A DNA stretch of 64,000 bases, from contig JAAXWO010000012.1 in NCBI GenBank assembly GCA_013334965.1, forward strand, positions 1-64,000. The letters are read 5' to 3'. Under the pieces are notes generated by a model. The model was given only the letters and a program-made list of their open reading frames with translations, searched no databases and was not told where the DNA came from. Source of the DNA: Chlorobiaceae bacterium. Its GTDB lineage: Bacteria; Bacteroidota; Chlorobiia; Chlorobiales; Chlorobiaceae. The position numbers were made by a program, and so were the translations under genes. Within the stretch, counting starts at the first letter, position 1, and every line of letters starts with the position of its first letter. Shown piece by piece: positions 45,502 to 47,926 of this stretch.

Positions 45502-45552
45502 GTGAGCTGAACAAGCTGTTATATTTATTCGAAACCAAAATGCATTCGAACC

Positions 45553-45759
45553 ATGAAAAAACTTCTCGTGTTCCTGTTCCTCATGAGCTCAGTTTCATTT
45601 GTTGGCTGCGCACAGAAAGCCGAACAGCCTGCTGCTGAAGCACCGAAAACCGAAGCTGCTCCGGCACCTGCCGCTGCTCCTGCTGCACCTGCAGCTCCTG
45701 CTGAGCAGGCTGCTCCTGCTGCTGCTCCTGCTGCTCCTGCTGCACCTGCTGCAAAATAA
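45553..45759 (+). CDS. Small Ala/Pro-rich lipoprotein
   Basis: A 68-residue precursor with a lipoprotein signal peptide (KKLLVFLFLMSSVSFVGC, Cys19 as lipidation site). The mature 50 residues are almost only Ala, Pro, Glu, Gln and Lys in APAAAPAAPAAPA-type repeats, encoded by GCTGCTCCTGCT-type repeats. It should be anchored in a membrane with a stiff, extended chain. It has its own promoter and a strong terminator, so it is a monocistronic, probably abundant transcript. Function unknown; repeat number may vary between strains. Confidence 0.8.
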   Translation: MKKLLVFLFLMSSVSFVGCAQKAEQPAAEAPKTEAAPAPAAAPAAPAAPAEQAAPAAAPAAPAAPAAK

Positions 45760-45780
45760 GTTCCTGAATAAGGGCTTCTT

Positions 45781-45812
45781 AAAAAGAGACAGAGGAAACT
45801 CTGTCTCTTTTT
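45781..45812 (+). terminator. Rho-independent terminator of the lipoprotein gene
   Basis: A perfect stem (45781-45794 with 45799-45812, core GAGACAGAG) with a GAAA tetraloop, followed by a run of T. It lies about 20 bases after the stop. Confidence 0.92.
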
Positions 45813-45870
45813 TTTTATCCAATTTTCGCGTTGCCAACGGTTTTCAACAGGCGGAAATCGGAATGGGCAA

Positions 45871-45903
45871 AAAAAAAGACACGGTTGAGCCGTGTCTTTT
45901 TTT
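45871..45903 (-). terminator. Terminator of tRNA-Gln
   Basis: Stem GACACGG/CCGTGTC flanked by A7 and T7 runs, loop TTGAG. It lies immediately 3' of the leftward tRNA-Gln and could act in both directions. Confidence 0.85.
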
Positions 45904-45904
45904 G

Positions 45905-45976
45905 CTGAGGAGGTAGGAGTCGAACCTACAATTGTCTGATCCAGAATCAGGTGCCTTACCATTTGGCCACTCCTCA
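45905..45976 (-). tRNA. tRNA-Gln(CTG)
   Basis: The 72-base cloverleaf starts TGAGGAGTGGCCAAATGG. Its anticodon loop TTCTGGA carries anticodon CTG, and the T-arm has GGTTCGACTCC. CCA is not encoded. It is followed by its own terminator. Confidence 0.95.
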
Positions 45977-46029
45977 ATAGCGTTGTGAATATAAGAAAAT
46001 ATTTAAAAATCAATCGCCTGTTTTAGAAA

Positions 46030-47122: not shown

Positions 47123-47926
47123 ATGACAAGCAGCTTCTTCAGGATTCTGCTCCTGACCCTTTTATCCCTGTCGACAATGATGTCGGGATGCAGTGAGCGC
47201 CCTCACGCCATCGAGAAAATGGATGACGCCCGATATGCCAAGATCGGCATCATGACCGGCACAACCGGTGAGATTATCGCCAAAAACAGGTTTCCCCAGG
47301 CCGATTTGAAGCACTTTGACGACGTCATGGATGCGTTTATGGCCCTCAAATCTGGTAAGATCGACGGGATTGTCACTACATACCTGACGGCGAACCAGCT
47401 CTGCAAGAAGAACGCCGATGTCCATTTCCTGAGCGAAGACCTTATCAGGGAGAGTGTTTCCGTTGCTGTTAGAAAAGGGAATACCGAGCTTCTTCAGGCA
47501 GCCGACGCCCTGATCGACGAGCTGAACGCCGACGGTACGATTGCCGAAATGCGCAAACGCTGGTATGACAATACGACGGGCGATTACCAGGAGCCTGAGT
47601 ACGCATTGCCTGACTCGGGTGAGCCACTGAAAATCGGCGTCAGCGCGACACGCGAACCGATGAGCTTTGTCGACAAAAACGGCAGGGTGACCGGATTTGA
47701 CGGAGAACTTGCCCGGCGGTTTGCCGCAAAACTCAACAGGCCGGTAACATTTCATGACATGAAGTTCATGGCCTTGATTCCCGCCCTCGAGTCCGGCAAG
47801 GTCGATGCCGTCATCACCGGCATCTCTGAAACCGATGAGCGGAAAAAGCGGGTTGATTTCAGCAAGCCATATTTCTACATGGCACAGGTCCTGCTGGTGA
47901 AGAAGGCGGGATCAACCTCACATTAA
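47123..47926 (+). CDS. Family 3 solute-binding lipoprotein with swapped lobe order (apparent circular permutation)
   Basis: A 267-residue secreted lipoprotein (hydrophobic signal, lipid site Cys23 in MSGCSE). Both halves match the SBP_bac_3 family of amino-acid binding proteins, but in reverse order. Residues 37-150 (KIGIMTGTTGE through ELNADGTIAEMRKRW) correspond to the second half of normal members. Residues 168-260 (LKIGVSATREPMSF, GFDGELARRFAAKL, ERKKRVDFSKPY, VLLVKK) correspond to the first half. The break falls at the hinge. No further second-half sequence follows the stop, and no ABC permease is adjacent. Ligand unknown. Confidence 0.8.
   Translation: MTSSFFRILLLTLLSLSTMMSGCSERPHAIEKMDDARYAKIGIMTGTTGEIIAKNRFPQADLKHFDDVMDAFMALKSGKIDGIVTTYLTANQLCKKNADVHFLSEDLIRESVSVAVRKGNTELLQAADALIDELNADGTIAEMRKRWYDNTTGDYQEPEYALPDSGEPLKIGVSATREPMSFVDKNGRVTGFDGELARRFAAKLNRPVTFHDMKFMALIPALESGKVDAVITGISETDERKKRVDFSKPYFYMAQVLLVKKAGSTSH

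Follow-up and report, generated by a model that had tools for sequence, protein, structure and literature searches.

A natural circularly permuted family-3 solute-binding lipoprotein from a Chlorobiaceae bacterium and the importer class of its relatives

Closest described systems and the permuted gene

Two described systems come closest to the binding protein presented here. GlnPQ of Lactococcus and Enterococcus carries tandem family-3 substrate-binding domains (SBDs) that have the usual order of halves and are fused to the permease (PMC8025302), and TpMglB-2 (Tp0684) of Treponema pallidum is a natural, circularly permuted type I sugar-binding protein (PMC4990184). The gene under study lies in a 64,000-nucleotide stretch of a Chlorobiaceae genome (contig JAAXWO010000012.1, positions 1 to 64,000), which is referred to as the window. 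Its product is a type II (family 3) solute-binding protein (SBP) in which the half that is second in ordinary members (H2) precedes the half that is first (H1):

47123..47926, + strand: permuted family-3 solute-binding lipoprotein gene, 267 aa, identified by profile and PDB sequence matches, rotation, a syntenic orthologue and its dN/dS (see below)
47123..47191, + strand: predicted lipoprotein signal ending at Cys23 (MSGC), which is nearly invariant among 64 relatives; helix 2-17 in the AlphaFold2 model
47237..47572, + strand: H2 half, aa 39-150, matching the second half of ordinary family-3 SBPs (148.8 bits)
47378..47380, + strand: codon of Thr86, aligned with Asp161 of the LAO-binding protein; non-acidic in the window-type subclass
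47573..47623, + strand: within-unit linker, aa 151-167, joining the former C- and N-termini; near-constant length in 167 units
47624..47908, + strand: H1 half, aa 168-262, ending in the hinge strand VLLVKK and matching the first half of ordinary family-3 SBPs (135.5 bits)
47651..47653, + strand: codon of Arg177, aligned with LAO Tyr14; invariant in the window-type subclass
47840..47842, + strand: codon of Arg240, aligned with LAO Arg77; invariant (64 of 64 rows)

H2 comprises lobe 2 and the C-terminal helices of lobe 1. The lipobox-like MSGC motif is located immediately N-terminal to it, and this motif, the signal helix and the conserved Cys23 predict, on the level of sequence, that the protein is exported and lipidated.

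With canonical family-3 SBPs such as the LAO-binding protein, GlnH, ArgBP and AncQR, the protein shares the homology of both halves and the invariant carboxylate-binding arginine, but its halves are reversed, its termini are on the hinge side of lobe 2, and its subclass combines a non-acidic residue at the LAO Asp161 position with the additional invariant Arg177. TpMglB-2 is likewise a naturally permuted lipoprotein SBP, is present in many species and binds its ligand, but it is of type I, permuted within the N lobe and has a fourth crossover, whereas the window protein is cut at the hinge with an exchange of whole halves; on the sequence level, the latter is matched in Pfam and the PDB by type II family 3 alone and does not belong to the type Ic of TpMglB-2. 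In case of GlnPQ, the permuted relatives share the tandem SBDs N-terminal to a HisM/GlnP-type TMD, the separate GlnQ ATPase and the flexible inter-SBD linkers, but GlnP is built as (H1-H2)x2-TMD and the permuted relatives as (H2-H1)x1-4-TMD, and the ATPase of the latter possesses an extra HATPase_c_2-like C-terminal domain. A natural permutation of a family-3 SBP was not found in the open-access literature, subscription papers being outside this search, and no permuted family-3 member with a solved structure or with ligand data was encountered; the half-swapped layout is thus apparently undescribed.

Half order, gene integrity and predicted fold

The window protein scores 132.7 bits with Pfam SBP_bac_3 (PF00497; cut-off 26.4), and the match is split into two stretches, the best of which places aa 169-262 on profile positions 1-93. 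In the PDB, AncQR is matched with swapped order (E 1.6e-43), its residues 12-106 corresponding to 169-263 and its residues 108-231 to 29-148 of the query. The initial annotation had put the second half (residues 37-150) before the first (168-260), and both the coordinates and the order agree with these matches. It had also proposed a comparison after rotation, and indeed, when the C-terminal part is moved in front, the cystine-SBP model is matched in one full-length collinear stretch (42-261 of 266, 150.3 bits), as compared to two stretches with 136.6 bits for the unrotated protein. The remaining main NCBIfam SBP models behave in the same way and give a collinear single match after rotation, which argues against two chance hits and for a permutation. 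The swapped order of the window protein is therefore confirmed.

As the homology to SBP_bac_3 is clear but the order is H2-H1 and not the canonical H1-H2, the protein is filed as a permuted variant rather than as a canonical member of the family. Named amino-acid SBP equivalogs (cystine FliY, ArgT, GlnH, HisJ) do not reach their curated NCBIfam cut-offs even with the rotated sequence, the best rotated score being 150.3 bits against a cut-off of 312, and no named specificity can therefore be assigned.

Could the reversed order simply result from decay or from an assembly artefact, with the outer halves of a once normal tandem SBP removed by frameshift or truncation? Such a route could in principle yield an H2-H1 order, but no result supports it. 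The gene has its own signal peptide, and when all six frames of the complete window were scanned for H1 and H2 profile matches, exactly one of each was detected, both within the 47123-47926 ORF, and no detached half elsewhere in any frame. In the assembly of another species (G018), an orthologue with 89% identity has the same half order and the same neighbours, which are an aconitase, a methyltransferase and an outer-membrane efflux protein. Between the two genes, the Nei-Gojobori dN/dS is 0.09 for the whole gene, 0.06 for H2 and 0.04 for H1, and third codon positions hold 87 of the 117 differences, so that the stand-alone protein is under strong purifying selection. With this orthologue, this selection, the absence of remnant halves and an H2-H1 order that is common to about a dozen phyla, decay is ruled out for practical purposes. 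Homologues in normal order with extra halves that the window gene had lost by frameshift, which would have contradicted the initial annotation, were not seen; the homologues keep the H2-H1 order.

An AlphaFold2 model that was built with an alignment of 64 relatives (pLDDT 90.5, pTM 0.83) predicts that both lobes form and that residues 244-260 make up a long hinge strand, in agreement with the earlier proposal that the permutation retains the two-lobe fold. Residues 163-256 of the model correspond to the isolated domain 1 of the Thermotoga maritima arginine-binding protein (TmArgBP; 43% identity), and 84 columns superpose on AncQR with 0.8 A at 52% identity. Canonical family-3 SBPs are found at Z scores of about 11, which supports a two-lobed fold with hinge as far as a prediction can do so. 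Type II SBPs are internally pseudo-symmetric, and for this reason ordinary SBPs also superpose on the model in sequential order with exchanged lobes (Z about 11, 3.4 A, 13-21% identity), as for example 4zv1 (Z 11.4, 3.4 A, 172 aligned residues, 21% identity). A fold search was therefore rejected as proof of the permutation. The same pseudo-symmetry probably accounts for the tolerance of half swapping.

The permuted class and the pairing of its halves

A scan of genome contigs with the permuted query gave at least 410 relatives, and the best 80 loci were analyzed with H1, H2, permease and ATPase profiles. They belong to Chlorobiota, Pseudomonadota, Thermodesulfobacteriota, Myxococcota, Acidobacteriota, Bacillota, Bacteroidota, Ignavibacteriota, Actinomycetota and others, about a dozen phyla in total. 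H2 leads in all 100 complete SBP ORFs of these loci, in a set of relatives that the permuted query biases toward permuted proteins. Single H2-H1 proteins are most frequent (42), 11 ORFs are H2-H1-TMD proteins, and two, three or four units precede the permease in 25, 15 and 3 ORFs, respectively; the remainder are a few truncated or altered forms. The general layout thus is (H2-H1)x1-4; a HisM/GlnP-type permease is fused to it in many cases, and a GlnQ-type ATPase usually lies beside it. As the same H1 and H2 profiles read 17 canonical two-half control proteins as H1-H2, the method can recognize the usual order, and the permuted layout is a real and widespread class and not a broken gene. No match was found among plasmid records.

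Canonical H1-H2-permease fusions were also encountered (L155, L158, L160, L163, L168), and both arrangements thus coexist in this phylum. An assignment of the about 500-aa single-half matches in relatives to MltF had to be rejected for those that are canonical H1-H2-TMD fusions, and these served as controls; the corresponding about 500-aa match in the own genome is, by its own sequence, an MltF-like lytic transglycosylase. In the tree, which includes several long-branched canonical rows, the permuted units are on one side with weak support (78), so that a single origin of the permutation is at most weakly supported. Tandem duplication with subsequent loss of the outer halves, one of the origins initially suggested, is plausible, and since the H2-H1 order is common to about a dozen phyla, such an event would have been ancient.

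Which halves pair with each other in the tandem proteins? If the tandem relatives were ordinary, H1 of one unit would pair with H2 of the next and the outer halves would close together, and the stand-alone H2-H1 protein would be a leftover middle piece that forms a swapped dimer or is non-functional. Profile matches across unit junctions speak for such an arrangement: in a 775-aa ORF, TIGR01096 spans the junction (24-250) as a full-length ordinary SBP, a Pfam match likewise crosses a unit junction (166-388 corresponding to 1-131), and L. lactis GlnPQ (6h30) is matched collinearly across its SBD1-SBD2 junction. The linkers, however, favor the H2-H1 module. Within units, the H2-to-H1 linker has a near-constant length (median 16, SD 1.6, 167 units), whereas linkers between units vary from 19 to 40 (SD 5.2). 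Coevolution points in the same direction, as H2 distances correlate with those of H1 of the own unit with r 0.925 and with those of H1 of the preceding unit with r 0.388 only (bootstrap difference 0.40-0.67). In a predicted two-unit importer (moderate confidence, pLDDT 76, pTM 0.39), compact SBP superpositions of 3.3-3.5 A extend over residues 23-263 and 261-504. Ordinary SBPs that were superposed on H1 of the first and H2 of the second unit (162-352) of this model have 24-35% identity at about 15 A rmsd, and these two halves thus do not pack together in the model.

Moreover, nature has carried out a one-unit removal. At locus L053 (3950-5698), an in-frame deletion inside the second binding unit extends from mid-H2 to the end of H1, which leaves the neighboring unit intact and results in an H2-H1-(partial H2)-permease arrangement. 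Linker lengths, coevolution, the tandem model and this deletion together argue that H2-H1 is the module and that the stand-alone protein is one such module. The 42 stand-alone single units and the strong purifying selection on the stand-alone protein also disagree with the ordinary pairing, which we regard as quite unlikely. In the module arrangement, the H2 and H1 halves of the window protein would pair within one chain; the AlphaFold2 model rests on the sequence alignment and is equally compatible with a domain-swapped dimer.

A very common bacterial fold therefore has a natural half-swapped branch in about a dozen phyla, and annotation has hidden this branch, since an ordinary domain is what the profiles report across unit junctions. 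It offers natural material on how a pseudo-symmetric two-lobed fold tolerates permutation as well as for the design of binding-protein biosensors, and permuted SBDs can inform about docking when the tether leaves from the hinge.

Ligand pocket, probable importer role and signalling neighbours

In the LAO-binding protein, we take Arg77 to contact the alpha-carboxylate and Asp161 the alpha-ammonium group of the ligand. The equivalent of Arg77, Arg240, is kept in all 64 aligned rows. At the Asp161 position, the 31 window-type rows have A, S, T, L or G, and 31 of the 33 other rows D or E; Arg177 is invariant in the 31 window-type rows and T in most others. The retained Arg240, the replaced Asp161 and the invariant Arg177 suggest the hypothesis of an anionic ligand that is bound without the usual alpha-ammonium contact.

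The chain would run from lobe 2 to the C-terminal helices of lobe 1, then via the short linker to the N-terminal part of lobe 1, and finally return with the hinge strand to lobe 2, and the two lobes would close like a Venus flytrap around a small anionic solute that bears a carboxylate.

No permease or ATPase gene adjoins the window gene or its syntenic counterpart in G018, and it was this absence beside the window gene that had led the initial annotation to suggest a sensor or scavenger. The genome encodes three permuted SBPs, namely the window protein, an orphan on contig C12 and a copy on contig C13 that is followed by permease and ATPase genes, and a search of the genome for permeases gave only that of the C13 SBP-permease-ATPase operon as matching. 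In the tree, the window protein is placed with the first units of multi-unit importers (support 98), the C12 SBP with the permease-nearest units and the C13 SBP with stand-alone SBPs. This placement identifies the window protein as a detached copy of the leading binding domain in the permuted importer class. In G021, window-type and C12-type units are fused in one 772-aa SBD-SBD-permease protein that is followed by the ATPase. The closest stand-alone orthologue after that of G018 among the matches listed (68% identity, L043) begins some 10 bp downstream of an ABC ATPase frame and sits in an SBP-permease operon, and many other orthologues are fused to a permease. The covalent TMD fusion of GlnPQ-type importers is thus absent from the window protein but present in orthologues, and the permease and ATPase are present in the genome as the C13 operon, the cognacy of which is deduced.

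The simplest reading, which we hold to be the somewhat more probable one, is that the importer has been taken apart in this lineage and that dispersed lipoproteins feed C13. The protein descends from the leading binding domain of importers with the layout (H2-H1)x1-4-permease plus ATPase, the importer would have been split into separate genes in this genome, and the window protein would dock on the one permease-ATPase pair that matches, on contig C13, to deliver its solute. For the explanation as a whole, i.e. a genuine natural circularly permuted type II (family 3) lipoprotein that stems from this importer class and feeds the C13 pair, we estimate a probability of about 0.78.

A stand-alone periplasmic sensor or scavenger that feeds no transporter and, for example, reports its ligand to a signalling protein would agree with the missing ABC genes beside the window gene, and relatives often sit with genes of a dCache-HAMP-SpoIIE phosphatase, STAS and RsbW, on account of which a sensory role is possible. 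However, orthologues are permease-fused or in ABC operons, the genome has the matching pair, and the dCache-HAMP-SpoIIE phosphatase was not detected in it by a search that was run without positive control. We thus consider the sensor or scavenger rather unlikely and favor the role in import to C13.

In about half of the window-type loci, the dCache-HAMP-SpoIIE phosphatase is encoded upstream of the permuted importer. The recurrent order is NMT1-like SBP - SpoIIE - (H2-H1)n-TMD - ATPase - STAS - RsbW in Chlorobi, Nitrotoga, Nitrosomonas and Methylobacter, with later cluster genes falling outside the examined DNA in some loci. SpoIIE and dCache are confirmed by Pfam, and the names NMT1-like, STAS and RsbW derive from reading the sequences and from similarity between loci. 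An example is L033 (2937-8292), and further ones from several phyla are L049, L052, L053, L056, L057, L058 and L064; in this cluster, a complete set of partner-switching genes adjoins an ABC importer. The partner ABC ATPases, including that of C13, have a C-terminal domain of about 118 aa (e.g. L035 3534-3887, - strand), of which 31 of 39 are matched by the RsbW-like Pfam HATPase_c_2 (best 8e-7; the C13 match is weak with E 0.023), while a PDB profile search gave no match; the usual N-box asparagine appears to be lost.

These associations lead to an apparently undescribed operon that links ABC import to SpoIIE/STAS/RsbW signalling, and no report on a SpoIIE-ABC system was found in the open-access literature. 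Tentatively, the permuted importers may be tied to partner switching by the SpoIIE phosphatase, STAS, the RsbW kinase and the RsbW-like ATPase domain, so that the phosphatase-kinase module would read out, or switch on and off, the occupancy of as many as four permuted domains or the transport that passes through them; Chlorobiaceae like the source organism would have lost this module, with the domains dispersed as individual lipoproteins. We consider this idea possible but still doubtful.

As a minor observation within the window, an ORF at 45525-46013 (- strand) that adjoins the aconitase gene contains long Ala/Gly low-complexity repeats (GAAGAAGAA...) and probably represents repetitive DNA, not a normal protein.
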